Assembly: GCF_000162755.2 (NCBI RefSeq)
Contig: NZ_JH413822.1
Coordinates: 132,433 to 183,816, forward strand
Length of the DNA: 51,384 nucleotides
Direction of reading: 5' to 3'
DNA from: Legionella drancourtii LLAP12
GTDB taxonomy: Bacteria > Pseudomonadota > Gammaproteobacteria > Legionellales > Legionellaceae
Positions 56-37,180 of this stretch are shown piece after piece. Position 1 is the stretch's first letter. Each line of letters opens with the position of its first letter. The notes under the pieces are model-generated. The model was not told the origin of the DNA, ran no database searches, and saw only the letters and a program-made list of their open reading frames with translations. The translations under genes and the position numbers were made by a program.

Positions 56-88
56 AATGATCGCATATTAAATTTAAGTGTTGATTAA

Positions 89-502
89 TCACACAAACCA
101 CTCCACATTTTTCCAGTTGCCAAGGTTAGCTTTTTTAGCTGCTATTCTGGCTTCGCTGTTTCCAACATGAATTTCTAATTTGTGCCCATCTGGATCAAGA
201 AAATAGAGAGATTCACCAGGAGATGTGTTCTCTTTAAAAATGTGAGCGCCGGAATTTTGAATTTTATCAGCCATCATTTCAAAATCTTCACTGCTTACAC
301 TAAATGCATAATGGGTATAACAAGACTGAGGTTCTCTTGCTAAATCAACGTTGAGGCAGAACCAAAAGTCTCCTATCAAGAAATATGCTCCTTGATCCCA
401 TTTAACTAATGGTTTAAACCCTAAAACATCTTTGTAAAACGAGAAAGCTCGGTGGATGTTACTAACAGCTAAAGTGATGTGATTGATGTTTGTAATAGTC
501 AT
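89..502 (-). CDS. fosA: FosA-family fosfomycin thiol transferase
   Basis: A 137-residue vicinal-oxygen-chelate (glyoxalase fold) protein. FosA enzymes are cytoplasmic, Mn2+-dependent and add glutathione to fosfomycin. The expected metal ligands are all visible: His8 at the start of the first beta-alpha-beta unit, His64 in THYAF and Glu110 in HKLE. Thr10, Lys90, the Ser94/Ser98 potassium-loop region and Arg119 also align with characterised FosA residues, and WDQGAY is a family landmark. It is the last gene of the eight-gene leftward operon; its ATG overlaps the stop of the upstream acetyltransferase by 4 bp, so translation is probably coupled. Assignment to FosA rather than a generic glyoxalase rests on this full set of residues. 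Activity on fosfomycin is inferred. Confidence 0.85.
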   Translation of the reverse strand: MTITNINHITLAVSNIHRAFSFYKDVLGFKPLVKWDQGAYFLIGDFWFCLNVDLAREPQSCYTHYAFSVSSEDFEMMADKIQNSGAHIFKENTSPGESLYFLDPDGHKLEIHVGNSEARIAAKKANLGNWKNVEWFV

Positions 503-1044
503 AGTTTTTTTACCATTAAATCACTGTTGTGTCCGATGAATGCTCCTTGCGTTGCTTGATATTGCCCAACTTTAGTAAAGCCGGCTTTATTATAAACTCT
601 TATAGCTCTAGGATTGTTTTCGTCCGGATCGATAAAAAATGTGTCGGCTTTCGGATCTATGTCTTTTTTATAAAAAATCATAAATTCCGACAGCGTAGGC
701 GCCGCCAGTCCGCGCCCTAAATATTCTTTATTGGCTATACCAAAATCGAGCGCGATTGTATACCCCGTTTCAGACATGTTTGCAAGGTGCGTATTCGAAA
801 GGTCTTCTTGATCTTTTTTGAGAATATCAGACAGAACAAAAGCGTACGGCTGTTTATCTATAAAACCGATCCAGTACTGAGTTGTTCCTGCAAAATAAGT
901 TTGCGGCTTTCCCTGGATAAAATTAAGAATATCATCTTTATGTTCTTGGCTGTTATCCCAGAACTCCATCATATGAGGCTCGGTAAGCCAACTAAAGATG
1001 GTGTCTATGTATGATGTCGACGCTTTTTGAAACGTAATGTTCAT
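499..1044 (-). CDS. AAC(6')-like GNAT acetyltransferase
   Basis: A 181-residue GNAT of the Acetyltransf_8 / AAC(6') type. Landmarks are the N-terminal WLTEPH...FWD segment, the acetyl-CoA loop in the NKEYLGRGLAAP region and the C-terminal DPDENNPRAIRVYNKAGF motif, which resembles the DPxxxNxRAIxCYEKAGF signature of AAC(6')-Ib relatives. Such enzymes acetylate the 6'-amine of aminoglycosides; some relatives act on siderophore precursors or peptides, so the substrate is unproven. The ATG overlaps the stop of the upstream reductase gene by 4 bp and the stop overlaps fosA, consistent with one polycistronic message. Confidence 0.8.
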   Translation of the reverse strand: MNITFQKASTSYIDTIFSWLTEPHMMEFWDNSQEHKDDILNFIQGKPQTYFAGTTQYWIGFIDKQPYAFVLSDILKKDQEDLSNTHLANMSETGYTIALDFGIANKEYLGRGLAAPTLSEFMIFYKKDIDPKADTFFIDPDENNPRAIRVYNKAGFTKVGQYQATQGAFIGHNSDLMVKKL

Positions 1045-1571
1045 GTGTTTTTCCTTGAATAAATTTTTTGCATCATGCCATCCGTTAAAGCTTTTTCGGC
1101 TGTTAAATCAAACTTTTCAAAAGTTAAGCCAAGCGGTATACCTTCTCCTAAAGTCTGAGGAATAATTGTAAGAATGACTTCATTAAGTAGGCCTTCTTGT
1201 GCAAAGCTTTTAGCAAGCTCTGCACCGCCCAGAAGCCAGATGTCTTTATCTGATGTGCGGTCTTTGAACTTGGCCATAAACTCAAATGGGCTATCGTGCG
1301 TAATGCTGATGTAGGGTTTATCGGGTTCAAGTTTTTTGGAGGTGAAAACATAAGTGTGTTTATCCTGCCAGCCCCAATCACCAAAGCTTAAAATTTGTTT
1401 GTAGCTTCGGCTTCCCATTAGAATTGTATCGATGCGTTCCATTAGGTCTTTGTAGCCAACCGCTTCTAGTTCAGCATCATCTTTTGGATGCGGAAGCCAA
1501 TCAACGCCGCCGTTAATATCTGCGATAAAGCCATCAAGCGCAGTTGCAATATAGAGGATTATTTTATTCAT
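1041..1571 (-). CDS. dihydrofolate reductase / RibD C-terminal-like reductase
   Basis: About 176 residues. The N-terminus IILYIATALDGFIA followed by VDWLP, then MGSRSYKQIL and DIWLLGGAELAKSF, is typical of the DHFR-like RibD_C reductases (YwjB/YyaP type), which bind NADPH. The family is distinct from classical folate-pathway DHFR, and a trimethoprim-insensitive role is only a guess. I place the start at ATG 1571, 4 bp after the methyltransferase stop; an upstream ATG at 1592 would add MPRRCNA and overlap that gene by 17 bp. It sits in the middle of the marR operon, upstream of the AAC-like gene. Confidence 0.75.
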   Translation of the reverse strand: MNKIILYIATALDGFIADINGGVDWLPHPKDDAELEAVGYKDLMERIDTILMGSRSYKQILSFGDWGWQDKHTYVFTSKKLEPDKPYISITHDSPFEFMAKFKDRTSDKDIWLLGGAELAKSFAQEGLLNEVILTIIPQTLGEGIPLGLTFEKFDLTAEKALTDGMMQKIYSRKNT

Positions 1572-1575
1572 AGCA

Positions 1576-2364
1576 TTACACCTTCTTGGCAATCGTTAAT
1601 ATCCGCTCAGAATTTTCTTTCGAAAACGCTTCGCCATTTATGTCGGTTTGAGCTAATACAACAAACCCATTTTCTTTTAAGATTTCTTGTAACTCATCGC
1701 TACCGTAAACTTGAAGCGTGTTTTCATAACCTTTTGATACTTTTGTAGGACTCTCATTTCCATCTTGATAAACATAGGTACTATAGGATGCTAAAATGCT
1801 GTCATCAGAGATGGTGCTAAATTGAATTTCTCTGAATTTCTGACCATCGGTTGCAGCCATCCAATCTCCAGTTAATTTTGTGATGTTATTACCGGCTTTC
1901 AGATAATCTAAATTAAATATGTCGAAAATATACAAACCACCTGCATTTAAGTTACGATTTATATTTTGGATGGTGAGTTTAAAGTCTTCGCGAGTCAAAT
2001 GACCAATTGCATTAAATATGGTAATCGCAGCATCGAACTGGCCTGCATGAACAGTGCGGCAATCTCCTTGTAAGAATTTAATTTTCAACTGCTTAAGTTT
2101 CGCTTTTTGTTTAGCAATGTTGAGCATGCTCCGGCTAATGTCGCTGCCCATAACTTCAAAGCCTGCCTCGATGAGCCAAAAGACTTGAGAACCGGTACCG
2201 CAAGTAAGATCAAGAACGGTAGTAATCTGATGCTCTTTTAATATTTTCTCTAAAAGCGCATTGATGGCCCTCGAATTATTTTCATTAAATTCATCATAGC
2301 ACTCAGCCCTTGTGTTGTAATAAGAGGCTTTTGCTGTTGTATGTTTAAGTGTTTTCATCTTCAC
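1576..2364 (-). CDS. class I SAM-dependent methyltransferase
   Basis: A 262-residue Rossmann-fold methyltransferase. The SAM-binding motif I is VLDLTCGTGSQVFWL (about residue 50), followed by an acidic residue in GSDIS (motif II), QGDC (motif III) and FDAAITIFNAIGHL (motif IV), the pattern of Methyltransf_11/25 small-molecule methyltransferases. The substrate cannot be read from sequence; the context suggests an antibiotic or metabolite rather than rRNA. The start overlaps the stop of the P-loop kinase gene by 4 bp, and the stop lies 4 bp before the reductase start. Confidence 0.8.
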   Translation of the reverse strand: MKMKTLKHTTAKASYYNTRAECYDEFNENNSRAINALLEKILKEHQITTVLDLTCGTGSQVFWLIEAGFEVMGSDISRSMLNIAKQKAKLKQLKIKFLQGDCRTVHAGQFDAAITIFNAIGHLTREDFKLTIQNINRNLNAGGLYIFDIFNLDYLKAGNNITKLTGDWMAATDGQKFREIQFSTISDDSILASYSTYVYQDGNESPTKVSKGYENTLQVYGSDELQEILKENGFVVLAQTDINGEAFSKENSERILTIAKKV

Positions 2365-2921
2365 CCTTGGCTTAGTATTTTTATATGATTCATAATGGCC
2401 TCCGCTGCATCTTCCGGGCTTAAATTGCTAACATTTAGCGAAAATAAATTAGGGTGGGAGATCGAGATAATTGGCCCATTATCTTCAGCATCGTTTGGAT
2501 CAATTGACTTCCACCTTTCTCTTCTTTCTGGTCGTGTCAGGCGCTTTAGATGCTCTTCTTTATTAATTTGAATTTGTACTGGAATAAATAATGACCCTCG
2601 TGTTTCGGCCATTTGTTGCACTTGTCCGTAAAGTTCTCTATCTTCCTGAGTATCTGCCAAACAGTTTGTAAGCACATAACTATTCTTGGTGTGATGGACC
2701 AGGAAATCGAAAAGTTCAGCCCTTATGCGAGCGATAGTATCCCAAGCAAAATCAGGTATCTTGGCATATCCGTCATATTGCAATAGCTCAAAAATAGGAT
2801 TATTGATCAGCTGATTATCGCAAACGATAAAACCATGGTTTGCAGCCAACTCCTTAGCAATGGTGTATTTACCGACCCCAGGCTTGCCTGTTAAATAGAT
2901 GATGGTTGTTGGTTGTGTCAT
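2361..2921 (-). CDS. P-loop kinase-like protein (AAA/shikimate-kinase fold)
   Basis: A 186-residue protein beginning with a hydrophobic strand and Walker A loop TGKPGVGKYT, in which the usual Ser/Thr after the Lys is Tyr; a Thr follows directly. It is followed by alpha/beta segments and a basic LTRPERRERW lid-like stretch, as in small nucleoside or antibiotic kinases. Chloramphenicol- and hygromycin-type phosphotransferases share this fold, but no substrate motif is recognisable. ATG and stop each overlap the neighbouring genes by 4 bp. A phosphotransfer role on a small molecule is inferred from fold and context. Confidence 0.6.
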   Translation of the reverse strand: MTQPTTIIYLTGKPGVGKYTIAKELAANHGFIVCDNQLINNPIFELLQYDGYAKIPDFAWDTIARIRAELFDFLVHHTKNSYVLTNCLADTQEDRELYGQVQQMAETRGSLFIPVQIQINKEEHLKRLTRPERRERWKSIDPNDAEDNGPIISISHPNLFSLNVSNLSPEDAAEAIMNHIKILSQG

Positions 2922-3382
2922 ATCATCACGCTCCTAAATACATCTGAGGCCCGCGTTTTCAGCCACTGAGGCACGAGTTCTCTCAAGGGCTCGGCTCTAA
3001 AATCAATCTCAGATAATTGATGCAAGGGAACCCAGATTAATTCAATATGCTTTTCAAGCTGGGGAATTTTATGATTGCTTTTCAAAGATTCTGATTCAGC
3101 CTCAAAAATAAAATTATATTCATGGTTGTGACAGATACTGCTATGACCAGGTTCGAAGCTGTATTCTATACATCCTAAAAATCTCTTGATTTTGCAATGA
3201 GCTCCAGTTTCTTCTATTAATTCACGAAGGAGCGATGTTTCAACCGATTCACCATGCTCAACATGCCCCCCTGGGAGAAAATAAAAACTGATTGGCAGGT
3301 CAAGTGTTTTGCAAAGCAAAATATGGTCTTGATCTATTATCACGCCTCGACTCAAAACGTGGATATTATTCTTCGTGCTCAT
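2918..3382 (-). CDS. NUDIX hydrolase
   Basis: About 154 residues. A complete NUDIX box is visible (GHVEHGE, seven residues, then RELIEETGA), matching Gx5Ex7REUxEExGU. These Mg2+-dependent enzymes cleave nucleoside diphosphates linked to another moiety. I choose ATG 3382 because a GAGG sits about 6 nt upstream; an ATG at 3394 would add four residues. Either start overlaps the end of the upstream fusion gene, implying coupling. NUDIX genes often sit beside nucleotide-using modification enzymes, so cleaning up NTP derivatives is plausible but unproven. Confidence 0.8.
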   Translation of the reverse strand: MSTKNNIHVLSRGVIIDQDHILLCKTLDLPISFYFLPGGHVEHGESVETSLLRELIEETGAHCKIKRFLGCIEYSFEPGHSSICHNHEYNFIFEAESESLKSNHKIPQLEKHIELIWVPLHQLSEIDFRAEPLRELVPQWLKTRASDVFRSVMI

Positions 3383-4973
3383 CTTCAACCTCACATTTTG
3401 TGCCTTGATGAAATATCATTTTCCACTCATCACCATATCGCTGCCAAATTGAAGATCGCAGCGAAGCAATGCCATCTTCTGTTGTTTTGTATGTTGCTAA
3501 CGTCACGTCCTTGGATAATTCCTTAATCTTGAAGTCGCTGACCACAAATTTTCTTGAGGTTTCATCTGGTTTGATACAATCCTGCTTGTTATAAATCTTA
3601 CCGGAGGTGCCAAACTCAAGAAAATCATCGGCGATTAACTTACTTAATTGCTCGGTGGATTGTCTTACAGAAGAGTCTAAAAGGGATCGCTCCATCGCTT
3701 CAATCGATTTTGACAAAATGCCAGCCTCGGTTATCCTTGATTCTTTTGGGGCATCTGACCTGAATCCATTCCAAAATAATCCACCATAAGATTCTAGAAT
3801 TTTCATTACTAATAATTCTAATGCAGTAGAATGGCCTGTTTGGAAGAGACCTTCAAAAGCTTGCGTGAATTCTAAAGCAAGATCGGGATTATCGCTTTTC
3901 AGATAACGGATAATTGATTTACCGCTGGCGCACCACTTATTTTGGCTTCTAAAATAAAATTGCCCCAGAGCCTCAAGTAACCATGCAGCGGATGCAATCT
4001 GCTCATCGCGCCCGGCTGGACATTTAATATCATCCAGAACATCGGTAATTAAAAATCGTTCTTTGTTGATTTGTTCTTGGTCCCATGTAGCTGGCCCTGC
4101 ATTCAAAACTTCTTGCGCGAGTGTTTTAACATTTTCTGAAAAAGCGCTGGAGTTTGTTACCTCGCGTCCATTCAAAATCATATGGCAGAGGCCAGAGATA
4201 CCATTCCCTGTCCTTGATTCCTCAAAAAAATATCGCAAGGTATTAAAATCGTTAATAAATGCGTCAATAGGCCAACCATTGTAAATAAAGGCTTCTCGAT
4301 AAGCGTGGGCTATTTCTTCAAAAATAATCACAAGATCTAGATCGGATGTATTTGTTCCCTTATTAACTGAAACAGATCCCGCCCAGAATATGGCTTTAGC
4401 ATCAGGATAGCGTTCTTTAATAAGTTTTTGGATGGTTGGCAATGGTTCATTCCTCGAAGATAAATCCTTTAACATCCACACTTCTCCAGTATCTTCCTGT
4501 TCTGATACCTTCTTGAATCCTGCTTTCTCGTAGCATTTAACGGCAGCAACATTATTACTATCTGGATCGGCAAAAATGTGGGAGTACTGATTGCCTTGTA
4601 ATTTAAGGAATTCTAAAATTGCTTTTGAGCCAACACCTTGTTGTAATGCCTCTTCTGCGCCAATAAAAATATCAAATGCACCCAAGTTTTCTGGTAGGCC
4701 TAAGAGTGACTTACTTCTGGGAAAATCGTATGCATTATAAATCTGAATGTAACCAACTGGATTTTGGTTATGCTGAATAATGAAGCTTTTGATGGGTTTC
4801 TCAAGGCCTTCTACAAGCTTATAGCCTTTGACGTATGAGCTATATTTCTCATGAACCAAATCCAGCGTATACGTCACACTCTGATCCCACCATGCTTTAA
4901 CGTGCGGCGCTTCCAGCCACTTCAGTAACAGAGGAAAATGTGACTCAGCTAAGGGAGTGAAAGTGATTTTCAT
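3366..4973 (-). CDS. three-domain fusion: AAC(6')-like GNAT + nucleotidyltransferase + NTF2/DUF4440-like
   Basis: A 535-residue protein. Residues 1-172 form a complete AAC(6')-type GNAT (EAPHVKAWWD near 21-30; FADPDSNNVAAVKCYEKAGF at 134-153, very close to the AAC(6')-Ib signature). Residues 180-420 look like a Pol-beta-type nucleotidyltransferase: GS at 199-200 followed by SDLDL at 210-214, the GSx(8-10)DxD metal site of ANT enzymes, then a helical region. About 425-535 resembles a DUF4440/SnoaL (NTF2-like) domain ending in WQRYGDEWKMIFHQGTK. AAC and ANT domains each inactivate aminoglycosides; this three-part architecture is not one I recognise. First structural gene after marR (4-bp ATGA overlap). 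Substrates are inferred. Confidence 0.75.
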   Translation of the reverse strand: MKITFTPLAESHFPLLLKWLEAPHVKAWWDQSVTYTLDLVHEKYSSYVKGYKLVEGLEKPIKSFIIQHNQNPVGYIQIYNAYDFPRSKSLLGLPENLGAFDIFIGAEEALQQGVGSKAILEFLKLQGNQYSHIFADPDSNNVAAVKCYEKAGFKKVSEQEDTGEVWMLKDLSSRNEPLPTIQKLIKERYPDAKAIFWAGSVSVNKGTNTSDLDLVIIFEEIAHAYREAFIYNGWPIDAFINDFNTLRYFFEESRTGNGISGLCHMILNGREVTNSSAFSENVKTLAQEVLNAGPATWDQEQINKERFLITDVLDDIKCPAGRDEQIASAAWLLEALGQFYFRSQNKWCASGKSIIRYLKSDNPDLALEFTQAFEGLFQTGHSTALELLVMKILESYGGLFWNGFRSDAPKESRITEAGILSKSIEAMERSLLDSSVRQSTEQLSKLIADDFLEFGTSGKIYNKQDCIKPDETSRKFVVSDFKIKELSKDVTLATYKTTEDGIASLRSSIWQRYGDEWKMIFHQGTKCEVEDEHEE

Positions 4974-5440
4974 AGCAGATTAATCTCTTTAACGCGTGTT
5001 AAAACCTTCAGGGAAGTCAAAAATTGTTCCATATCTTGTTCTACGGGAGCAAAATACTCCTTCTCATTTGTTTTCATAATTTCAGCGGCTTTTTTGACGA
5101 GCTTTTTTCCGGCAAGTGATAGGCTAGAGTATTTTGCCCGCTCATCACCTTCTATTTGCGCGCGGCAAACAAGCCCACGTTTTTGTAGAGTACGAAGAAT
5201 TTGGGATGTCATGGTTACATCAGAATTGGTGAGCCTAGCCAGATCATTTTGCGTTGCCTTGTCGTGATGTTTTTCTAGCTCAAACAGTGTCCCCATAAAG
5301 ACATACTGTGTATGCGTTAGGCCAATAGCCTCTAAAGCCCTGTCTGTGATGCGCTTCCACGTAAAATATGCCTGAGCAAAAGTAAAACTTGGGCCCTCTA
5401 ACACTGGGATTTTGTAGTCTTTTGTGGCGTTACCTGACAT
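4970..5440 (-). CDS. MarR-family transcriptional regulator
   Basis: A 156-residue winged-helix protein. The core has helix 2/recognition-helix features (ATQNDLARLTNSDVTMTSQI) followed by LQKRGLVCR and the wing (EGDERAKYSSLSLAGKKLV), the order seen in MarR proteins, flanked by dimerisation helices. MarR proteins are usually dimeric repressors that release DNA on binding phenolic or other toxic ligands. It is the promoter-proximal gene of the leftward operon, divergent from the SDR operon, with about 150 bp between them that contain a candidate palindromic operator. Control of both operons and autoregulation are inferred from this arrangement. Confidence 0.85.
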   Translation of the reverse strand: MSGNATKDYKIPVLEGPSFTFAQAYFTWKRITDRALEAIGLTHTQYVFMGTLFELEKHHDKATQNDLARLTNSDVTMTSQILRTLQKRGLVCRAQIEGDERAKYSSLSLAGKKLVKKAAEIMKTNEKEYFAPVEQDMEQFLTSLKVLTRVKEINLL

Positions 5441-5500
5441 GTATTTTTCTCCATAAAAAGGGGTTGTTTTAGAAAAAAAATAACCATCATAACATGATTA

Positions 5501-5517
5501 TGCATATTATAGATGCA
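5501..5517. promoter_or_regulatory. candidate MarR operator in the divergent promoter region
   Basis: Inverted repeat TGCAT-N7-ATGCA in the AT-rich gap between marR and the SDR gene, similar in size and AT content to known MarR sites. A TATTAT-like hexamer overlaps it on the plus strand. No footprint can be claimed. Confidence 0.4.
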
Positions 5518-5588
5518 CAAAATATAGTTTTATGTCAAGATAAAGCTGTAGGAATCTCATAATTTTGTCATCTGGCGGAAAATTAAAA

Positions 5589-6341
5589 ATGCAACTATTT
5601 GATCTAAATGGTAAAACATCATTAATCACCGGGGCTTCAAGTGGTCTTGGGGAACAATTCGCCCGTTGCCTATCAGGTGCAGGCGCACGTGTGATCTTGG
5701 CCGCTCGCAGGATTGATAAATTGAACGACTTGGCGCTTAAGCTTAATAACGCTAGGGCCATCCAGATGGATGTGTCAGACAAACAATCCGTAAAAAATTG
5801 TTTTTCTGAGTTAGAAAAGAATGGTGAAAAGATCGACATCTGCGTTAATAATGCCGGAATTGCTATTCTTACTCCTATTTTTGAAGAGGATGATAACGAT
5901 AATTTTGAGTCGATCATTCAAACGAATCTGATGGGTGTTTGGTATGTCACAAAATCAGTGGCGAATCATATGAAGAACCATGGTATTCATGGATCGATTA
6001 TTAATATCGGCAGTGTGAATGGGGATGCCATTCCTGCAAAATGCGGTGCTGCCTATAGTGTTAGCAAGGCAGCAGTGATTCATTTAACCAAAACCTTGGT
6101 TGGTGAGTTATCGCCCCATAAAATACGGATCAATTGTATTTCTCCAGGTTGGATTAGAACCCCTATGAATGGACCTGACTTAGAGCAAATAATTCCCTTG
6201 ATTCCTTATGGAGATATTGCTGAACCAACTGACCTTGACGGGCTAGTGTTATACCTTGCATCCAACAACGCCTCAAAATATGTTACAGGCGCATGCCTAA
6301 ATATAGACGGTGGTATGTCTTGGGGAGGAAAGTCATGGTAG
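5589..6341 (+). CDS. SDR-family oxidoreductase
   Basis: A 250-residue classical short-chain dehydrogenase/reductase: cofactor loop TGASSGLGE near the N-terminus, NNAG motif (CVNNAGIAIL), catalytic Ser (NIGSVNGD), YSVSK active site and the C-terminal GxxLNIDGG. An Arg in the AARR segment after the second strand suggests an NADP(H) preference. I choose ATG 5589; an upstream TTG at 5565 would add eight residues. It heads the rightward operon opposite marR. The role may be oxidation or reduction of a xenobiotic, but SDR substrate range prevents a firm call. Confidence 0.85.
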   Translation: MQLFDLNGKTSLITGASSGLGEQFARCLSGAGARVILAARRIDKLNDLALKLNNARAIQMDVSDKQSVKNCFSELEKNGEKIDICVNNAGIAILTPIFEEDDNDNFESIIQTNLMGVWYVTKSVANHMKNHGIHGSIINIGSVNGDAIPAKCGAAYSVSKAAVIHLTKTLVGELSPHKIRINCISPGWIRTPMNGPDLEQIIPLIPYGDIAEPTDLDGLVLYLASNNASKYVTGACLNIDGGMSWGGKSW

Positions 6342-6982
6342 AGAGAAATTATCCAAATCCCAACACTCTTTACCCCATAGAGGGCGTTTCAAGGACAGCA
6401 TACTTAAAAAACATCATCACAAACCCTCAAATTATTGTGGGTGATTATACTTATTATGATGATCCTGAAGACGTGCACAACTTTGAGAAAAATATTCTTT
6501 ATCTCTTTGACTTTATGGGGGACAAGCTCATCATCGGCAAATTCTGCCAAATCGCCACAGGAGTCCGTTTCATCATGAATGGATCAAACCATGCAATGAA
6601 TGGTTTTTCCACCTATCCATTTAAGGTTTTTGGTGGAGAATGGGCAGAAAAAGATCCTATGCAAGTAGTGAGTAAGGGGGACACAGTTGTCGGTAATGAC
6701 GTTTGGATTGGTAATAGCGTAACTATCATGCAAGGTGTAAAAATTGGCGATGGCGCTATTATCGGCACAAACAGCTTAGTGACCAAAGATGTTGAGCCTT
6801 ACACGATTGTTGGCGGAAATCCTGCAAAGGAAATTCGCAAAAGGTTTGATGAAGAAACGATCCAATTGTTGCTTGCTCTAAAATGGTGGGACTGGGACGT
6901 CCAAAAAATCACGGATAATCTTGAGGTTATAACCAATGGCAAGATAGATGAATTGAAACGAATTTATGCGGAAAATAAATGA
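6335..6982 (+). CDS. xenobiotic acetyltransferase of the Vat/CatB (hexapeptide) family
   Basis: A 215-residue left-handed beta-helix acyltransferase. It starts NYPNPNTLYPIEGV and contains the YYDDPEDVHNFEKNILY segment and NHAMNG with the catalytic His, then hexapeptide repeats (VVGNDVWIGNSVTIMQGVKI) and VGGNPAKEIRKRF. These are the landmarks of streptogramin A acetyltransferases (Vat) and type-B chloramphenicol acetyltransferases. Family members act as trimers with acetyl-CoA. The ATG at 6335 overlaps the SDR stop and follows a strong GGAGG; the earlier in-frame ATG at 6293 lies inside the SDR gene. Vat and CatB cannot be separated without alignment. Confidence 0.85.
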   Translation: MVERNYPNPNTLYPIEGVSRTAYLKNIITNPQIIVGDYTYYDDPEDVHNFEKNILYLFDFMGDKLIIGKFCQIATGVRFIMNGSNHAMNGFSTYPFKVFGGEWAEKDPMQVVSKGDTVVGNDVWIGNSVTIMQGVKIGDGAIIGTNSLVTKDVEPYTIVGGNPAKEIRKRFDEETIQLLLALKWWDWDVQKITDNLEVITNGKIDELKRIYAENK

Positions 6983-7266
6983 ATTTAAGTAATAAGCAAC
7001 TCAATACAACAGAGCAAAACCACCTGGGTCATTTTGCATATCTACTAAAAAATCTTGGTTTTGACGTTTATGAAATGAACAGTGTGACCGTCATTAATTG
7101 TGACCTAAAAACAAGTATGTTTAGTATTGTATATGGAGCACCTAAGGACACTACTTCTTTAACTTTGTCAGCTTCAAGTGACTCTGGTTATCATATTTAC
7201 GAACGCCTTGGTTTTTCTAAAGCAGGAAAGTTTGAATGCTTTGAGTATAAAGGAGATCGCCCTTGA
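6979..7266 (+). CDS. short GNAT-like remnant with apparent internal deletion
   Basis: A 95-residue ORF with an N-terminal helix-rich part and a typical GNAT C-terminus (SASSDSGYHIYERLGFSKAG), but no acetyl-CoA pyrophosphate-binding loop (Q/RxxGxG/A) between them. The C-terminal motif matches that of the full-length GNAT at 43641-44411 (ESSDSGLGVYQKLGF). The simplest reading is an in-frame deletion of the catalytic core. The frame is still open and coupled to both neighbours (ATGA start overlap, TTGA into the next gene), so it may still be translated. Confidence 0.5.
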   Translation: MNLSNKQLNTTEQNHLGHFAYLLKNLGFDVYEMNSVTVINCDLKTSMFSIVYGAPKDTTSLTLSASSDSGYHIYERLGFSKAGKFECFEYKGDRP

Positions 7267-7670
7267 CCATAGAGTTTATATCCACGCCCGCAAGTGAAGA
7301 CATAGATTTTCTAACCAATAAAATCAATCAAGAGACACCTAAATTGGGCGAAGCCTATCCTTTTGCATTCTTTATGCGAGATGATAAGAACCAAATTATT
7401 GCAGGCTGCAACGGCAGTGTGATTTTCGGCAGCATTTATACAGATCAATTGTGGGTACATCCCGATCATCGCAATAAAGGTTTAGGATATCAATTGATGG
7501 AAGCTGTGCATGATTATGGCCGTAAGTCAGGATGTTCTATGGCAACGGTTGCGACTATGAGCTTTCAGGGAGCTAAAGCATTCTATGAAAAATTAGGATA
7601 CGTAACTGATTTTGAAAGGCAGGGCTATACGCGCGGTTCTAGCTGTATCTTTTTAAAGCGGAGCTTGTAA
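7263..7670 (+). CDS. GNAT N-acetyltransferase
   Basis: A 135-residue single-domain GNAT. Motif A is evident as LWVHPDHRNKGLGYQLM (pyrophosphate loop RNKGLG), followed by FQGAKAFYEKLGY at the C-terminal acetyl-CoA site. The start is TTG at 7263, preceded by AAGGAG and overlapping the stop of the preceding remnant, so initiation is probably coupled. Its stop overlaps the ATG of the APH fusion. The substrate is unknown; the context suggests an amine-bearing antibiotic. Confidence 0.8.
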   Translation: MTIEFISTPASEDIDFLTNKINQETPKLGEAYPFAFFMRDDKNQIIAGCNGSVIFGSIYTDQLWVHPDHRNKGLGYQLMEAVHDYGRKSGCSMATVATMSFQGAKAFYEKLGYVTDFERQGYTRGSSCIFLKRSL

Positions 7671-9628
7671 TGTTTAAAGTTGATTGGGAGAAAACAAGTC
7701 TCACGTACCAGCTTCCAGAAGGCATGGCAGAAAAAATGGTACGCCTTGCTTATCCTGATAAAAAACTTACCTCCACTGAATTGATTGCTGGCGGATGCGC
7801 TAATCTTAATTACAAAATTCAGTTGGAAAATGAACAAAAGCCACTGATTTTGCGTGTTTATTTGCGCGACAAAGATGCAGCGCACATAGAACAAAAATTA
7901 GCCGCATTAATCAAAGAAACTGTGCCGGCACCACTAACGCATTATATCGGCAAACTTGAAGGGTATCACTTTGCTATTACAGAGTTTATTTCTGGCATTT
8001 CTCTTCGTGATTTTTTGTTAAGCAACGCTTCTGATGCTAACGGTGCACTCATGAGTGAAGTTGGGATGATTCTCTCAAAAATCACAGCATACGAATTTTC
8101 AAAATCTGGCTTCTTGAACAAAGATTTGGAGGTGGTCGAGTGCGAATCCTCTGATGTTATAAAATTTGCACTGGATTGCTTGAATGATAGAACCGTAGTA
8201 TCTGTGCTATCGCCTGAGATGATTGATGAAATCAAAAAAGCTATAAAGCAATATGCATATCTATTTTCCACTGACGATGAAAAGCACCTCGTTCATGGTG
8301 ACTTTGATCCCGCCAATATTTTGGTAGAACAAATTAACGGCTCTTGGGTTGTTACCGGCATTTTGGACTGGGAATTTGCTTTTCCTGGGTCTTATCTTTG
8401 GGACATCGCTAACATGCTCAGATACGCCCATAAAATGCCACCTGAATTCCAGAACTCATTTGTAGATGCCTTACAAAAAAATGGTATTAAATTACCAGCT
8501 CATTGGCCCATTACCATACATTTATTGAATTTATCATCGTTGCTTGACCTTCTTAAGCGATCAGACCCTAAAGACCATCCCCATCGATGCGCTGATATTA
8601 GCGAACTTATAAATCATATTTTGGGAGAATTAAACGAAATGAATGAAAGAAGAAAGGTTCAAGTGCGATGCTATCAAGATGGGGATGCCAAACATATTGC
8701 TAGTATTTTTTACAACACTGTACATACAGTCAATGCCAAGGATTATAGTAAAGAGCAGCTTAATGCATGGACATCATACTATGATAATTATGCTGCTTGG
8801 CAAGAAAAATGTGCAAAACTAAATCCTTTTGTTGCAACAATAGATGGTACGGTAGTTGGCTTTGCAGAATTTGAGCCAAATGGCCATATCGATTGCTTTT
8901 ATGTCCATCATGAATTTCAAGGTTCTGGAGTTGGCACGGCCCTTATGCGTGAAATCGAAATTGAAGCGAGAGAAAAATTATTGCCGCGCATTTATGCAGA
9001 AGTTAGCACTACTGCCAGAGCATTTTTTGCTAGCAAAGGATTTCAAGTGATAAAGCAACAAACGGTGCGAATTCGTGATATAGAACTGACAAATTTCCTT
9101 ATGGAGAAATCCTTTGTAACTTGTGAATTACTATCATCAGATCATATCCCACTTATCTCTGAAGCTTTCAACGCAATCGGCTGGAATAAACCGCCATCGC
9201 TTTTCGAAGAATATTTGAAGGAACAAGACGCCGGAGAGCGACTGGTTTGGGTGGCTCACTTCAATGGCGAATTTGCCGGTTACGTGACCTTAAAATGGTG
9301 CTCACAGTATCAATCTTTTCAAGAGCAAAGCATCCCCGAGATTGTGGATTTAAACGTATTGCCGGCCTATCGAAAAATCGGTGTTGGCTCCTTACTACTT
9401 GATACAGCAGAAAAAGAAGCTGCAACGAACAGCCAAATCATTGGCATCGGCGTTGGCCTGTATGCAGGTGCAGATGGCGGCTATGGAGCAGCTCAAAGAC
9501 TTTACGTAAAACGCGGCTACATCCCTGATGGCAAGGGTATTACTTATAATTATGAACCCACGATTCCAGGTAATCATTATCAGCTTGATGATGATCTGGT
9601 GCTGTGGTTTACGAAGAAATTAGGTTAA
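7670..9628 (+). CDS. three-domain fusion: aminoglycoside/choline kinase-like + two GNAT domains
   Basis: A 652-residue protein. Residues 1-320 are an APH/choline-kinase-type kinase with Brenner motif HGDFDPANIL (209-218) and metal-binding DWEFAFPG (233-240). Residues about 328-480 are a YafP-like GNAT with FQGSGVGTAL (416-425) and the Ala/Phe-rich ARAFFASKGF end. Residues about 482-652 are a second, different GNAT with DLNVLPAYRKIGVGSLLL and a C-terminal ..RLYVKRGY.. segment. One chain could therefore phosphorylate and acetylate, an idea parallel to but different from AAC(6')-APH(2''). It ends the rightward marR-side operon (start overlaps the GNAT stop). Both GNAT loops and the kinase catalytic residues look intact. 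Confidence 0.8.
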   Translation: MFKVDWEKTSLTYQLPEGMAEKMVRLAYPDKKLTSTELIAGGCANLNYKIQLENEQKPLILRVYLRDKDAAHIEQKLAALIKETVPAPLTHYIGKLEGYHFAITEFISGISLRDFLLSNASDANGALMSEVGMILSKITAYEFSKSGFLNKDLEVVECESSDVIKFALDCLNDRTVVSVLSPEMIDEIKKAIKQYAYLFSTDDEKHLVHGDFDPANILVEQINGSWVVTGILDWEFAFPGSYLWDIANMLRYAHKMPPEFQNSFVDALQKNGIKLPAHWPITIHLLNLSSLLDLLKRSDPKDHPHRCADISELINHILGELNEMNERRKVQVRCYQDGDAKHIASIFYNTVHTVNAKDYSKEQLNAWTSYYDNYAAWQEKCAKLNPFVATIDGTVVGFAEFEPNGHIDCFYVHHEFQGSGVGTALMREIEIEAREKLLPRIYAEVSTTARAFFASKGFQVIKQQTVRIRDIELTNFLMEKSFVTCELLSSDHIPLISEAFNAIGWNKPPSLFEEYLKEQDAGERLVWVAHFNGEFAGYVTLKWCSQYQSFQEQSIPEIVDLNVLPAYRKIGVGSLLLDTAEKEAATNSQIIGIGVGLYAGADGGYGAAQRLYVKRGYIPDGKGITYNYEPTIPGNHYQLDDDLVLWFTKKLG

Positions 9629-9660
9629 CAGGATTTATGATAATTACTTTAAATTACCTC

Positions 9661-9718: not shown

Positions 9719-10480
9719 ATGGCTTATACGGTAAAAGAATTAGCAAAGATATCTGGTGTAAGTGTACGTACCCTGCATTGGTACGATGAAATTGGTTTAC
9801 TTAAACCTTTCTCAAAAGGAGCTAATAATTACCGTTATTATGAAGAGCAGCAACTATTGCGTTTGCAACAAATTCTGTTTTTTAAAGAGCTAGGCTTTGC
9901 CTTAAATGATATCCAAAGGCTTCTTTCGCAAAATGACTTTGACAACATTAGAGCATTAAATGCGCATAGAAAAATTTTGGAAGATGAAATCGTTCGTAAA
10001 AATGATCTGATCACTACGATCGATAAAACAATTCAACATTTAAGAGGAAAAGAGGCTATGACAGACAAAGAATTATATTTTGGTTTTGATAAAAAACTGC
10101 CTAAGAGCAACCAATATACATGTATAGCTCGTGGTACACCAGCAGAAAAAATGTTGGAGCATTTTAAAAAAGATGATGTCATTTGGTCAGAGCAAGAATG
10201 GTCTGATTTTAAAAATGAAGTAGATACGCTGGATAAAGCGATTGCGAAATTAATATCAAAAAATGCTAAACCAGAAAGCGAAGATGTACAAGCGCTGATC
10301 CAGAAACATTACGAACTGCAATCTAATTTTTTTAATTTGACTCATGATGCTTATTTGGCCTTGATTCACATGTATGAAGATGATGACGCCACGATCAAAA
10401 CATTTTTTGAAGCTTATCATCCCAAAATGCAAAAATTTATATGCGAAGCAATGAGGCATTATGCAACTAAAATTTTGTAA
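9719..10480 (+). CDS. MerR-family regulator, TipA type
   Basis: A 253-residue protein. The N-terminal MerR winged helix is plain (YTVKELAKISGVSVRTLHWYDEIGLL, then NNYRYYEEQQLLRLQQI), followed by a coiled-coil dimer helix (about 75-115) and a C-terminal TipAS-like antibiotic-recognition domain (about 125-253). TipA proteins bind thiopeptides and other drugs and activate their own promoter plus resistance genes. A MerR-type promoter with a 19-bp spacer lies 28 bp upstream. It is followed on the same strand by the cyclase/beta-lactamase group, which it probably activates. The ligand is unknown. Confidence 0.85.
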   Translation: MAYTVKELAKISGVSVRTLHWYDEIGLLKPFSKGANNYRYYEEQQLLRLQQILFFKELGFALNDIQRLLSQNDFDNIRALNAHRKILEDEIVRKNDLITTIDKTIQHLRGKEAMTDKELYFGFDKKLPKSNQYTCIARGTPAEKMLEHFKKDDVIWSEQEWSDFKNEVDTLDKAIAKLISKNAKPESEDVQALIQKHYELQSNFFNLTHDAYLALIHMYEDDDATIKTFFEAYHPKMQKFICEAMRHYATKIL

Positions 10481-10563: not shown

Positions 10564-11265
10564 ATGACTTTCCCCTACAAAATCATCGATCTAACCCACG
10601 TACTTGATAGCACAATCCCTACATGGAATGGTGGATGCGGGTTTAATCATGATGTGCATATCGATTATGCTGATTGCCAAGGTGAAGATAAATTTCGCGT
10701 CATGAAAGTGGGAATGCATGCTGGGATTGGCACGCATATGGATGCGCCAAGTCATTGTATTCCTGAGGGGAGATTCATTCATGATTTTGATGTAAATGAT
10801 TTGGTAATGCAGTGCATGGTGATTGATGTATCAGGTAAATGCTTTGAGCGTTATTCCTTGAGCGTGCAAGATGTAGCCGATTTTGAAAGCAAGTATGGGC
10901 TTATTCAAAAAGGCTCATGCGTGATGGTTAAAACCGGTTGGAGCAAATTTTGGCATACACCTTCGAAATATCATAACAACCATGTGTTCCCATCCGTATC
11001 CTCTGAAGCCGCATCACTTTTACTTGAACGAGGCGTGAGCGCCATTGGTATTGATACACTCTCGCCCGATCGCCCAGAAGATGGCTTTAAGGTTCATAAA
11101 CTCTTTTTAGGTGCGGATAAGATCATCATAGAAAATGTAGCAAATCTGGGTATGCTACCGACCGGAAGCTTTGTCATGGTCCTGCCCATCAAAATTAAAG
11201 ATGGTACAGAAGCGCCGGTAAGGATCGTTGGATTGATTGAAAATGACAATGGAGCAAGCAGGTAA
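10564..11265 (+). CDS. cyclase-family (kynurenine formamidase-like) metal hydrolase
   Basis: About 233 residues. The start IIDLTHVLDSTIPTW and the metal motif GIGTHMDAPSH define the cyclase family (HxGTHxDxPxH), with a later SPDRPEDGFKVHKLFL segment, as in KynB-type arylformamidases and isatin hydrolase. I choose ATG 10564 because a GAGAG lies just upstream; ATG 10534 lacks a ribosome site. Family members hydrolyse amide or lactam bonds. Beside a beta-lactamase, detoxification is possible, but tryptophan catabolism relatives are the better characterised ones. No other kyn gene is present. Confidence 0.8.
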   Translation: MTFPYKIIDLTHVLDSTIPTWNGGCGFNHDVHIDYADCQGEDKFRVMKVGMHAGIGTHMDAPSHCIPEGRFIHDFDVNDLVMQCMVIDVSGKCFERYSLSVQDVADFESKYGLIQKGSCVMVKTGWSKFWHTPSKYHNNHVFPSVSSEAASLLLERGVSAIGIDTLSPDRPEDGFKVHKLFLGADKIIIENVANLGMLPTGSFVMVLPIKIKDGTEAPVRIVGLIENDNGASR

Positions 11266-11352: not shown

Positions 11353-12222
11353 ATGAAATATTGGAAAGTATTAAGCTTGGCGTTTTGCACATTTGCTTTT
11401 GCAGTTAATTGCAAAGCACACGCAGGAGTGAAGCAGATTGAGACAAAGTACAATGTTAAAATTGGCGTTTATGCAATTGACACCAATAATGGTAACAGCT
11501 TTTCTTATCGTCAGGATGAGCGCTTCCCATTTCAAAGCACTGTTAAGATGCTAGTAGCAGCTGTTGCTTTAAAAAATATTGAAGCTGATGAGAGAATAAA
11601 AATTTCTTCAGATGATATTGTGTTTTGGAGTCCTATCGTTCGCCTGAATTTAGATAGAGGTTACATGACGATAAAGGAGCTTGCAGAAGCAGCAATGCGT
11701 TATAGTGATAATGCTGCAACTAATATTCTGATTACAAGGCTTGGAGGAACTAAAAGCATTAATGAATTTGCAAAATCAATAGGCGACAGATCATTTAATT
11801 TAGAAAATTTAGAACCTAATTTAAACTCAGATCCAAATAATATTCATGATAGCTCTACTCCCAAAGATATGGCCCAAAGTGTTCAAAAATTATTGATAGA
11901 AAATAATGTGTTAGGTCAAGAAAATCAGAATATATTAAAAACTTGGATGATGAACAATACTACAGGTTACAAAAAAATCAGATATGGATTGCCTCTAGGT
12001 TGGAGCGCGGCAGAAAAAACAGGTGGAGGCTCTGTTATTTCTAATGATATAGGAATTGTATGGTCGCCTGCATGTAAGCCAATAGTACTAGCAATTTATA
12101 CATTTTCAAATAAAAAAGATAATGCGCAGAAGGCTGATAAAGCGATTGCTGAAACGACTAAATTTATTCTTGATGAGTTTTCTAAGAAAAACCTATGTTT
12201 CTCAGCAACGGATTTTAAATAA
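11353..12222 (+). CDS. class A (serine) beta-lactamase, exported
   Basis: A 289-residue protein with a signal peptide (MKYWKVLSLAFCTFAFAVNCKA). All class A motifs are visible: the nucleophile in STVK (Ser62-Lys65, corresponding to Ambler 70-73) after RFPF, SDN at 118-120, Glu154 in EPNLN (the omega-loop Glu166/Asn170 pattern) and AEKTGGGS near 220. It should hydrolyse beta-lactams in the periplasm. About 90 bp separates it from the cyclase gene, containing only a 12-codon ORF. The alpha/beta hydrolase that follows has a similar signal peptide. Spectrum cannot be predicted. Confidence 0.9.
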   Translation: MKYWKVLSLAFCTFAFAVNCKAHAGVKQIETKYNVKIGVYAIDTNNGNSFSYRQDERFPFQSTVKMLVAAVALKNIEADERIKISSDDIVFWSPIVRLNLDRGYMTIKELAEAAMRYSDNAATNILITRLGGTKSINEFAKSIGDRSFNLENLEPNLNSDPNNIHDSSTPKDMAQSVQKLLIENNVLGQENQNILKTWMMNNTTGYKKIRYGLPLGWSAAEKTGGGSVISNDIGIVWSPACKPIVLAIYTFSNKKDNAQKADKAIAETTKFILDEFSKKNLCFSATDFK

Positions 12223-12244
12223 GATTTATATGGCGGTTAATTTA

Positions 12245-12946
12245 ATGAAATATTTTAAAAATCTCTGTCTTATATTATGTGCATTCATCATTGCAAGTAA
12301 TGCTTATGCTCTAGAAAGCAAAACGCTTGATATGTTTGACAAGACCCGAGACAGAAATGTTCCTGTGGTTATTTATCAAGGGGAAACGATAAATAAACCC
12401 GCGGTGATCATCAGCCATGGCTATGGCATCAAAAATACAGAATATTCGTTTATTGCAAATGCTCTTGCAACACGTGGATATTTCGTAGTGACTATACAGC
12501 ATGATTTGGAGACGGATAAACCGCTTTCTACAACAGGAAATCTATTTGAAAGAAGAAACCCCCTTTGGGAACGTGGTGTTCAAAACATTTTGTTTGTGAT
12601 GAATGAACTGCAAAAAATAGAACCACAGTTGAATCTGAACAAAGTGATTTTAATAGGCCATTCTAACGGAGGCGATATGTCTATGTTGATGGCTCAGACT
12701 CATCCCAAAATGGTTTCAAAAGTTATTTCACTTGATAGCAGAAGGTATCCTTTCCCAAGAAATCCGAAATTAGAGATTTTACGTTTTGGAGCAATAGATG
12801 ATGAACCAGATGAAGGGGTCGTACCTGAGTCTGGTGTTCAAGTTATTTATGTGAAAGGTGCTCTGCATATAGATTTGTGTGATCGAGGAAGTCCGGAAAT
12901 TAAGGATGAAATTCAAAAATCTATTATTCAATTTTTAGATAGGTAA
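12245..12946 (+). CDS. exported alpha/beta hydrolase
   Basis: About 233 residues with a Sec signal peptide (MKYFKNLCLILCAFIIASNAYA). The nucleophile elbow is GHSNGG (motif GxSxG), an oxyanion HGYG follows the second strand (VIISHGYG), and a late HIDLCD supplies the likely catalytic His. This is the dienelactone-hydrolase/PAF-AH-like type. I choose ATG 12245 since the signal peptide starts there; ATG 12230 would prepend MAVNL. Its signal peptide resembles that of the beta-lactamase upstream, and the gap is only 22 bp. A periplasmic esterase acting on drugs or lipids is a guess. Confidence 0.75.
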   Translation: MKYFKNLCLILCAFIIASNAYALESKTLDMFDKTRDRNVPVVIYQGETINKPAVIISHGYGIKNTEYSFIANALATRGYFVVTIQHDLETDKPLSTTGNLFERRNPLWERGVQNILFVMNELQKIEPQLNLNKVILIGHSNGGDMSMLMAQTHPKMVSKVISLDSRRYPFPRNPKLEILRFGAIDDEPDEGVVPESGVQVIYVKGALHIDLCDRGSPEIKDEIQKSIIQFLDR

Positions 12947-12949: not shown

Positions 12950-13288
12950 ATGACAACAATAACATACGAAGAGTTTGAGCGAGTGAATTTGCGCTCTGGT
13001 ACGATTGTGAAAGTAGAAGAATTTCCAAGGGCAAAAAAGCCGGCATTCAAAGTGTGGGCAGATTTTGGACCTGAGATTGGCGTATTGCAAACATCAGCTC
13101 AAGTGACTGTGCATTATACGCCCCAGTTTCTTATTGGGCGCCAGATTGTGGGATGCGTTAATTTGGGAGAAAAGAATATAGCGGGCTTTACCTCTCAGTT
13201 TTTGCTTGTGGGATTTGCGGATGAAAGCGGCGCTATATGTTTGATAACAGTTGATCCAAAGGTTCCTAATGGACAAAAAATGCATTGA
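12950..13288 (+). CDS. csaA: CsaA-like tRNA-binding protein
   Basis: A 112-residue OB-fold protein matching CsaA: ITYEEFERVNLRSGTIVKVEEFPRAKKPAFKVWADFG at the N-terminus (shown here in part only as YEEFERVNLRSGTI and PRAKKPAFK), then QVTVHY, GRQIVGCVNL and the conserved end GFADESGAICLI. CsaA binds tRNA arms and has reported chaperone/export-related activity in Bacillus. It starts 3 bp after the exported hydrolase gene; a link to export of the upstream secreted enzymes is tempting but unsupported. Confidence 0.8.
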   Translation: MTTITYEEFERVNLRSGTIVKVEEFPRAKKPAFKVWADFGPEIGVLQTSAQVTVHYTPQFLIGRQIVGCVNLGEKNIAGFTSQFLLVGFADESGAICLITVDPKVPNGQKMH

Positions 13289-13841
13289 CATAAGACGCTT
13301 CATCCTCACTGGTACCCCAGGAAGTGGAAAAACTTCTGTCATCAAAGAGCTAGAAAAATTAGGTCATACTGTTCTTCATGAAGCTGCGACGGATGTCATT
13401 AGCATAGAGCAAGCTAAGGGTATAGAAAGACCATGGGAAGAGCACGGGTTTTTAGATAAAATTGCACACATGCAAAAAGAACGCCAGATGAATTCTACCG
13501 GAAATATGCAGTTTTATGATCGCTCACCTTTTTGTACCTATGCTCTTGGTAAATATTTATCTCATTGGAGCAATGACGATTTTAAGCCTTCTTCCATATT
13601 GCTTGATGAAATTCTTCGTTGCCTAGAGGGTGGAGTCTATCAAAACAAGGTCTTCTTTTTTGAAAATTTGGGCTTTATCGAGCACACTGATGCTAGAAAA
13701 ATTAGCTACGAAGATGCATTGGTTTTTGAACAGATTCATCTAGATGTTTATAAAGAGTTTGGTTTTGATATTATGATGTTATCAAAAGAGCTGACGGTCA
13801 CTTATCGATGTGAATTTATTTTGGAACAAGTCGTATGTTAA
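13269..13841 (+). CDS. AAA/NadR-like P-loop NTPase
   Basis: About 190 residues. The Walker A is TGTPGSGKTS, followed by HEAATDVISIEQAKG and YDRSPFCTYAL (DRS at the second active-site strand), the layout of the AAA_28/Ttd14-NadR-like family. Members bind ATP/GTP and often act as small-molecule kinases. I choose ATG 13269 (AAGG 6 nt upstream), which overlaps csaA by 20 bp; ATG 13251 would add six residues. Substrate unknown; a kinase function in drug modification is inferred from neighbours. Confidence 0.7.
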   Translation: MDKKCIDIRRFILTGTPGSGKTSVIKELEKLGHTVLHEAATDVISIEQAKGIERPWEEHGFLDKIAHMQKERQMNSTGNMQFYDRSPFCTYALGKYLSHWSNDDFKPSSILLDEILRCLEGGVYQNKVFFFENLGFIEHTDARKISYEDALVFEQIHLDVYKEFGFDIMMLSKELTVTYRCEFILEQVVC

Positions 13842-22918: not shown

Positions 22919-23214
22919 GTTTGCGCACTATCCCAATCCGCCAATGTGGAAACCGCCCGAGTCTTTTCATGGGCGGTGACCGAGAGCTCGTGATGTTTTC
23001 AGGTTTGCTGTCCGCCATTCTGATATTTGCAGCTCAAGACTGGCTAGCGGCCTTTGTTGGGGTATTGATGTGGTTTTCAGCCTTAAAAGGTCTTCGTCTC
23101 ATGGCCAAATCAGATCCATCAATGCGAGCAATTTATCTGAGACAAAGACGCTATCAGGCCTATTATCCAGCGCGCTCAACCCCGTTTAGGACTAATCGAA
23201 GAGGTTATCAATGA
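22915..23214 (+). CDS. trbD: TrbD, VirB3-like inner-membrane T4SS protein
   Basis: A 99-residue protein with [19 protein letters not shown] at the N-terminus, a typical VirB3/TrbD opening, and two adjacent hydrophobic stretches (about 28-60). The C-terminus is basic. VirB3-type proteins join the VirB4/TrbE ATPase at the inner-membrane complex. It overlaps trbC and trbE by 4 bp on each side, implying translational coupling. Confidence 0.85.
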
Positions 23215-36883: not shown

Positions 36884-37180
36884 TTAGCCTAAAAAATTAC
36901 CATCGCACATGGTTATCAGGTTTGACTCTTTTGCGCTCCAGCTTATCAGGTGCATTATCCTGCAATAGCACTTCACCTCTTGCGGTGAGCTGAACCACAT
37001 CGAGTTGGGACAGGTCTCGCAGGCCGTTTTGATTTTCGGCCGGCGTGCCGCAGCAAGTGCGGTAAGGGTTGGGCTTTGTTCTTGTTTTCCCCCACTGTCT
37101 TCGGCCTCCTGTTCTAGCAGCTTCATCGTTTCCAGAAGTTCCTCTTCCATTACCATATCGGTTTCGTCTTGCATGTTCAT
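36884..37180 (-). CDS. traH: TraH-like protein nested in the 3' end of traI
   Basis: A 98-residue ORF in a different frame inside the last 300 bp of traI, ending 13 bp beyond it. It has an acidic N-terminus (MVMEEELLETMKLLEQEAED) and a Cys-rich C-terminal unit (CETCPNSMWF, KCYCRIMHLISW, MCDG). RP4 traH is likewise contained within traI and encodes an acidic relaxosome-stabilising protein. The ordered Cys/Trp pattern looks like a folded protein rather than a shadow, while the traI frame also seems natural here. No strong ribosome site is apparent, so I keep confidence moderate. Confidence 0.5.
   Translation of the reverse strand: MNMQDETDMVMEEELLETMKLLEQEAEDSGGKQEQSPTLTALAAARRPKIKTACETCPNSMWFSSPQEVKCYCRIMHLISWSAKESNLITMCDGNFLG

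Follow-up and report, generated by a model that had tools for sequence, protein, structure and literature searches.

A MarR-headed array of putative drug-inactivating enzymes in Legionella drancourtii, with relatives in other bacterial classes

Resistance-type cargo on Legionella genomic islands and gene traffic among bacteria living inside amoebae have both been described. The LGI-T4SS islands of Legionella are conjugative islands (integrative and conjugative elements) whose cargo includes beta-lactamase and aminoglycoside-resistance genes (PMC3864950), and gene exchange among intra-amoebal Legionellales, Chlamydiales, and Rickettsiales includes an acetyltransferase and an aminoglycoside-phosphotransferase-family gene (PMC3220658). 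Here, we analyse a stretch of 51,384 nucleotides from Legionella drancourtii LLAP12 (contig NZ_JH413822.1, positions 132,433 to 183,816; hereafter the window), which begins with an array of modifying-enzyme genes set in two divergent arms around the gene for a MarR-family regulator. In the sections of the two reports consulted, the LGI-T4SS islands have in common with the window resistance-like cargo on Legionella conjugative DNA, but their cargo genes are described as scattered (PMC3864950), whereas the window has an ordered MarR-headed array in common with Rickettsiales; the exchange among amoebal bacteria concerns single genes and a four-gene ABC operon, with no ordered resistance-like array described (PMC3220658). 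No ordered MarR-headed array was found in the open-licence literature searched.

Two more familiar kinds of system invite comparison. Known MarR-type autoregulated divergent operons, such as those of MarR, OhrR, and HpaR, control one or a few genes; they likewise combine a MarR-family gene with a divergent gap holding a conserved element, but here about 15 genes stand in one arm. Multidrug-resistance integrons and transposon islands likewise line up numerous resistance-like genes on mobile DNA; unlike in these, the genes described here overlap, keep one order across bacterial classes, and centre on a regulator. Our reading, to which we give a probability of roughly two in three, is that the locus is a mobile array, switched by MarR, whose enzymes chemically inactivate small toxic compounds, most probably natural antibiotics. 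It is probably exchanged among protist-associated bacteria.

Gene content and packing of the array

The original prediction placed thirteen genes around one marR, and all 13 open reading frames (ORFs) are present at 89-9628 in two divergent arms, eight on the minus strand (from marR to a FosA-like gene) and five on the plus strand (from an SDR gene to an APH-GNAT-GNAT fusion). Six arrays were compared: that of the window with its extension in G001, the nearest genome compared (L064), and those of Legionella sp. km772 (L009), G037 (L035/36), the metagenome-assembled genome (MAG) G145 (L039/40), Anadelfobacter (L041/42), and G349 of the Anadelfobacter order (L063).

The minus arm starts with the MarR-family regulator (4970..5440; MarR_2 E 1e-7), over which no NCBIfam regulator model exceeds its cut-off, the SlyA, OhrR, and HpaR models matching below theirs. 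It continues with a fusion of a GNAT, a nucleotidyltransferase-like part, and DUF4440 (3366..4973; Acetyltransf_8 E 4e-16, DUF4440 E 6e-13). The GNAT part of this fusion is closest to a bifunctional AAC/APH enzyme (PDB 4qc6, E 1e-13), while the nucleotidyltransferase assignment comes from a weak Pfam match, under cut-off, and a GSx10DxD-like motif; an AlphaFold model (14 sequences) with a predicted local distance difference score (pLDDT) of 76 and a predicted template-modelling score (pTM) of 0.38 was weakest in the nucleotidyltransferase part and gave no identification. Next, still on the minus strand, come a NUDIX hydrolase (2918..3382; NUDIX E 1e-17), an AAA_18 P-loop kinase-like protein that we call AAAkin (2361..2921; 29.6 bits, cut-off 29.4), and an S-adenosylmethionine methyltransferase (1576..2364, with its start at ATG 2358 or GTG 2364; Methyltransf_25 E 6e-19), the last of which is 91-94% identical to the copies at L009, L039, and L041. 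The arm then has a RibD_C/DHFR-like reductase (1041..1571; RibD_C E 3e-14), GNAT1 (499..1044; Acetyltransf_8 E 2e-13), whose relatives are longer fusions, and a FosA-like thiol transferase of the VOC fold (89..502; PDB 1npb E 1e-37), which reaches 157 bits against the NCBIfam Fos_GSH cut-off of 180 and is missing from the five other full arrays.

On the plus strand, the SDR oxidoreductase (5589..6341; adh_short_C2 E 7e-52) is followed by a Vat-like O-acetyltransferase (6335..6982; PDB 4hur E 2e-64; Vat_ABCDEFH 291.5 bits, cut-off 300) with 90% identity to the L039 copy, an ORF of 95 aa (6979..7266), GNAT2 (7263..7670, TTG start; Acetyltransf_1 E 1e-14) with 78-85% identity to the L009, L035, and L039 copies, and the APH-GNAT-GNAT fusion (7670..9628; APH E 4e-21 and two GNAT stretches). 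The 95-aa ORF matches nothing in Pfam or NCBIfam and aligns with both ends of a 256-aa GNAT that is intact in a relative, and it is therefore a GNAT remnant and not a thirteenth enzyme. The two AAC-like GNATs of the array score far under the NCBIfam AAC cut-offs, and none of the 13 proteins has an integrase-type domain (Pfam, E <= 0.001; attC sites were not searched for). Of the chemistries listed in the original prediction, the FosA-like, Vat-like, APH, GNAT, NUDIX, RibD_C, SDR, and methyltransferase domains are present. The broader claim that many unrelated modifying chemistries are packed beside one marR is supported.

Taking ATG (or the sole available) starts, 9 of the 11 same-strand junctions are overlaps: six of 4 bp, one of a single base, and two of 7 and 17 bp. 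The other two are gaps of 2 and 4 bp, and the 2-bp gap closes to a 4-bp overlap when the methyltransferase start is placed at GTG 2364. It had been claimed that almost all junctions are 4-bp or one-base overlaps, which overstates a packing that is nevertheless tight (7/11, or 8/11 with the GTG start). Among 310 control pairs of same-strand neighbours outside arrays, drawn from ORFs of 70 aa or more that were called mechanically in several genomes, 37 have 4-bp overlaps and 87 overlap at all, so the excess in the window is clear for both (one-sided Fisher, p = 0.001 and p = 0.0004, respectively). Three other arrays have 4-bp overlaps at 23 of 40 junctions, against the same 37/310. Furthermore, GGAG-like sequences, candidate ribosome-binding sites, lie within the preceding gene ahead of several starts.

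The thirteen genes are not the full extent of the array. Over 1-15000, G001 and the window have the same sequence, and the minus arm of G001 runs beyond the window start, past the FosA-like gene, into genes for an APH-like protein (335 aa), two GNATs, a second APH-like protein (300 aa), a chloramphenicol-phosphotransferase-like protein (CPT, 201 aa) closest to the chloramphenicol phosphotransferase structure 1grq, a methyltransferase, and TspO, in that order. As called, each of these ORFs overlaps its successor; TspO is followed by a 90-base gap and then by an AraC/GyrI regulator. The plus-strand row also goes on, with a MerR/TipAS drug-sensing regulator (9719..10480; MerR_1 E 6e-18, TipAS E 4e-17) that is present in km772 and not labelled in the other arrays compared, a cyclase/formamidase-like hydrolase (10564..11265; Cyclase E 4e-35), a class A beta-lactamase (11353..12222; bla_class_A 267 bits, above the cut-off of 200), an alpha/beta hydrolase (12230..12946; scanned as 12122-12946, PAF-AH_p_II E 4e-8, Abhydrolase_1 E 7e-8), and k13 (13272..13841). 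This last gene, tentatively P-loop-like, stands at the far end of several arrays, with 74-100% identity in L009, L036, L040, and fragments in L042, and 76% in L063. The single sensor of the original prediction therefore holds for the core, but MerR/TipAS and AraC/GyrI regulators lie in or beside the array.

Order, candidate control element, and mosaicism across genomes

The six arrays have one gene order in common. The marR arm reads MarR, (CPT), GNAT/nucleotidyltransferase, NUDIX, AAAkin, methyltransferase, DHFR, GNAT153, GNAT524 or GNAT1, (Fos), APH335, GNAT155, APH300, MT255, TspO, and AraC/GyrI, and the opposite arm reads SDR, ABC exporter, Vat, GNAT256, (Cass2), GNAT2, APH-GrpB-GNAT, GNATs, cyclase, class A beta-lactamase, hydrolase, class D beta-lactamase, and k13. 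None of the six has the complete set; the ABC exporter, for instance, is found in L009, L035, L039, and others. In all 15 array pairs, the common families are collinear, with the sole exception of CPT between the window and L039, L041, and L063, and random orders did equally well in 0 of 200000 trials in each of four cases tried. The test used hand-made family lists taken from gene maps, scored broken genes as present, pooled the GNAT, cupin, and nucleotidyltransferase forms under one label, and omitted MerR, VOC, DUF6880, MATE, the second GNAT155, unlabelled ORFs, and the G145 genes at the opposite contig end (L040, 14-20 kb). The names k13, MATE, DUF1016, and CsrA-like, and that of the window's own ABC gene, are tentative labels. 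The original prediction had proposed looking for the same order in Legionella genomes; the order is conserved and is not confined to that genus. At L035 14032-14316 (G037), an SDR-like start sequence is retained in the gap before the ABC gene, which looks like an SDR gene lost by deletion at its original site.

The gap between marR and the SDR gene holds an 18-base conserved element (5531..5548, plus strand), which is a candidate operator or promoter. In the gap alignment of the six arrays, a 15-base core is exact in 6/6 and the window's 18-mer in 5/6, although the two MarR groups of these arrays are only 35-37% identical. We searched the window's order (143 genomes) with the 18-mer and the Anadelfobacter order (228 genomes) with the 15-mer, and the exact element was present in 10 of the 371 genomes, in 9 at array loci. 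The 18-mer occurs without mismatch in four of the 143, namely the three known arrays and G026, and its reversed control matched once; the 15-mer occurs in six of the 228, and its reversed control in none. Two loci, in G026 and G358, were found through the element alone: in G026 it is followed by the ABC exporter, GNAT2, and APH-GrpB-GNAT, and in G358 by an array-type ABC exporter and a GNAT2 remnant. The 15-mer carriers G151, G349, G286, and G375 are all array loci, those of G286 and G375 having been retrieved via GNAT2 and not via the element. Overall, the exact core lies beside 8 of the 10 MarR genes that head array genes. At L107, the contig starts 15 bases ahead of the MarR ORF, too near to judge the core; the MarR at this contig end (L107 16-1980, G199) is of a third type, 58% identical, and leads a short array consisting of a GNAT, a DUF4440 remnant, and AAAkin.

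Neighbouring genes of the array differ in divergence. Between the window and km772, five consecutive genes of the marR arm have synonymous divergences (dS) of 0.34, 0.50, 0.09, 0.88, and 0.22, and nucleotide identity changes from about 0.85 to 0.96-1.00 near window position 9600, approximately at the end of the APH fusion, staying at 0.94-1.00 to about 20 kb except in a MerR-MATE block. The AAAkin copy of the window has 91% identity with that of Anadelfobacter and 73% with that of km772. Trees and substitution ratios were computed from full-length frames of the named arrays: the three Legionellaceae form a fully supported group in the MarR DNA tree, whereas the AAAkin DNA tree rejects such a group (approximately unbiased test, p-AU 0.0137). 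Given this unequal divergence of neighbours and the two conflicting gene trees, the array is, by these comparisons, a gene-by-gene mosaic and was not inherited as a block. Pairwise ratios of non-synonymous to synonymous divergence (dN/dS), where finite and non-zero, range from 0.05 to 0.36, which is consistent with purifying selection on intact enzymes.

Besides Legionella sp. km772, a second genus of the Legionellaceae, a gammaproteobacterial MAG, and genomes of the order Rickettsiales have related arrays, several of these bacteria coming from lineages with an intracellular life. A contig scan with the APH-GNAT-GNAT protein, which as a one-protein scan detects close relatives only, gave 11 loci, titled Legionella sp. 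km772, a Legionellales MAG, a gammaproteobacterial MAG, Jidaibacter, Anadelfobacter, Finniella, a Holosporales MAG, two Alphaproteobacteria, a MAG titled Rickettsia typhi, and one further bacterium; a taxonomy lookup places Anadelfobacter in Rickettsiales and Finniella in Holosporales. Shorter or partial arrays stand at L137 (G286), L136 (G375), L107 (G199), L103 (G026), L114 (G010), L105 (G042), L018, and L014. MarR relatives (E <= 1e-20) occur in 3 of the 143 genomes of the window's order, and the GNAT-nucleotidyltransferase protein (E <= 1e-30) in 32, only four near full length, and in one of 398 genomes sampled from the phylum, which is G001. GNAT2 matches 21/143 genomes of the window's order and 17/228 of the Anadelfobacter order, often outside arrays. 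The methyltransferase marks 11 of 262 Anadelfobacter-order genomes, nine of them, besides G151 and G349, at 42-57% identity, and the stretches fetched around those nine matches (some short) contain no MarR-headed array. Of the nine, G192 (L061), G168 (L056), and G299 (L059) have a few relatives in scattered positions. Among plasmids, window DNA 1-20000 matched one record over 3%, and the fusion proteins matched 15 (GNAT-nucleotidyltransferase) and 12 (APH-GNAT-GNAT) records, none over 80% of the query. AAAkin relatives were seen in 37 of 262 Anadelfobacter-order genomes, often outside arrays, and in 38 plasmid records, all from Rhizobium or Ensifer at below 60% identity and some annotated as chloramphenicol phosphotransferase.

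Conjugation genes and further cargo

Farther along, the window has genes for a VirB4-type ATPase (23211..25736, plus strand; CagE_TrbE_VirB E 2e-27), a VirD4-type coupling protein (31365..33254, plus strand; T4SS-DNA_transf E 2e-130), and a MobA/VirD2-like relaxase (36897..38720, minus strand; Relaxase E 1e-32), and no tRNA gene was found in it. Because it adjoins these genes, the array is, to judge by its surroundings, mobile cargo beside a conjugation system. The original prediction spoke of chromosomal-style operons, which does not agree with this setting or with the rarity of the array noted above for MarR.

Several other features of the surroundings deserve mention. A MerR and MATE-like efflux block at 14646-17076 is not at the corresponding km772 site; the 100 bases at either end of this insertion have no direct repeat of at least 8 bases in common, and G001 has a related pair (72% and 66%) at another place (L071). 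A repeat search of window 1-20000 returned chiefly the mutual likeness of the two MerR genes. At 41024-48626, a second bank of cargo lies beyond the conjugation genes; it has an APH(9)-Ia-like kinase (259.5 bits, cut-off 680) in addition to a kinase-like ORF, an ABC gene, several GNATs, a fusion rich in GNAT domains, and deaminase-like ORFs. Two more clusters in G001 (L065 9287-17565 and L066 13874-18722) have paired ABC genes, GNATs, and relatives of the array fusions. Finally, in the other Legionellaceae genus (G042, L105 985-4619), a gene 99% identical to window ORF 18158-19162 adjoins array-type genes, namely a nucleotidyltransferase-like fusion and a DHFR fragment, hinting at the same element border.

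Proposed working and competing explanations

From what can be read in the DNA itself (gene content, junctions, order elsewhere, mosaicism, the conserved element, and the adjoining conjugation genes), we infer the following course of events, in which the array is probably under one switch. A phenolic or drug-like ligand would free the marR/SDR gap, where the 18-base element lies, from repression by MarR, and both divergent arms would then be transcribed, each as one long message. Overlapping stop and start junctions could couple translation, so that acetyl-, phospho-, nucleotidyl-, methyl-, and thiol-transferases, reductases, and the NUDIX hydrolase would be produced jointly and mixed threats might be met together. 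As cargo of a conjugative element, the array would move between hosts while individual genes are swapped, fused, or lost and the order persists. A role in drug inactivation is suggested by the beta-lactamases in the plus-strand row, joined in several relatives by the ABC exporter, by the score of the class D beta-lactamase of MAG G145 (L010; 302.5, above the cut-off of 280), by the likeness of CPT to chloramphenicol phosphotransferase, by Vat-like and Fos-like scores that come close to their cut-offs, and by the drug-binding folds TipAS, GyrI, and Cass2.

A number of observations weigh against this proposal. Most array proteins fall under curated resistance cut-offs, and, besides the class A, Vat-like, and Fos-like enzymes, the others scanned score lower still; the GNAT, APH, NUDIX, and methyltransferase folds also serve many other roles. 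Promoter-like sites are not commoner than in shuffled sequence (37 found in the sigma-70 scan against a shuffle mean of 43.1, and 12 in the terminator scan against 11.1). As for the element, G274 has it exactly with no array gene recognised alongside, G137 has it with one mismatch and no recognised array genes beside it, and L018, whose MarR is 33% identical, is without the core. With regard to mosaicism, the AAAkin protein test, with 10 of the 14 intended rows, is borderline (p-AU 0.0499) and the methyltransferase tree test is not significant (0.181). Some genes of L041, L063, and L136 are broken, a sign of possible decay in part of the Rickettsiales.

A cargo hot spot might instead have gathered resistance-like genes singly, without shared control, the packing being simply that of gene-dense mobile DNA. 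Gene turnover fits this, since Fos is in the window only and DHFR, NUDIX, Vat, and ABC vary by array, as do the insertion of the MerR-MATE block relative to km772 and the MerR and AraC regulators inside or adjoining the array. Against such accretion stand an order held across six arrays and a gap element retained despite the strong divergence of the two MarR groups, and we regard it as unlikely. It could also be argued that the sharing across classes comes from contaminated or misbinned assemblies, as MAGs or fragmented drafts make up several of the records and a 27-kb contig holds the array of Anadelfobacter; however, the arrays of G349 and G375, genomes of the Anadelfobacter order, are on contigs of 1.47 and 1.68 Mb and are diverged from that of the window and partly broken, not copies, which leaves an artefact very improbable.

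Other functions can be imagined for the same enzymes. The many transferases, the SDR, and, in several arrays, an exporter would suit a biosynthetic or tailoring cluster whose enzymes decorate a small molecule that is secreted and do not inactivate foreign ones, and the top NCBIfam match of the methyltransferase is a daptide-pathway methyltransferase, at 70.6 against a cut-off of 175. Yet no scaffold-building enzyme (nonribosomal peptide synthetase, polyketide synthase, or precursor of a ribosomally synthesised and post-translationally modified peptide) was matched among the array proteins scanned, and beta-lactamases and CPT-like, Vat-like, and Fos-like enzymes are present together with drug-binding regulators, so that a tailoring role seems improbable to us. 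An anti-phage or other nucleotide-based defence operon is hardly credible: PADLOC matched 2 of 10 proteins, the methyltransferase (mad2, E 5e-19) and the NUDIX hydrolase (PDC-S07, E 1e-12), but both belong to widespread folds, and the other eight had no match.

If the reading as a mobile, MarR-switched array is right, the resistance-like enzymes of endosymbionts and Legionella relatives would be not stray genes but a co-regulated module that crosses bacterial classes, and the exposure of protist-internal bacteria to antibiotics would become testable. The array would also point to modifying enzymes, and its short element can be used to locate further arrays. A wider version of the idea, which we offer tentatively and would not count on, is that a single inherited super-array for chemical defence, made up of some 25-30 gene families and equipped with a regulator and a common control sequence, circulates across the divide between Alphaproteobacteria and Gammaproteobacteria among protist-internal bacteria. 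Its order would be kept because the genes are induced together, as one programme directed at the mixed natural antibiotics within host cells. Were this true, the interior of protists would be an arena of antibiotic warfare.

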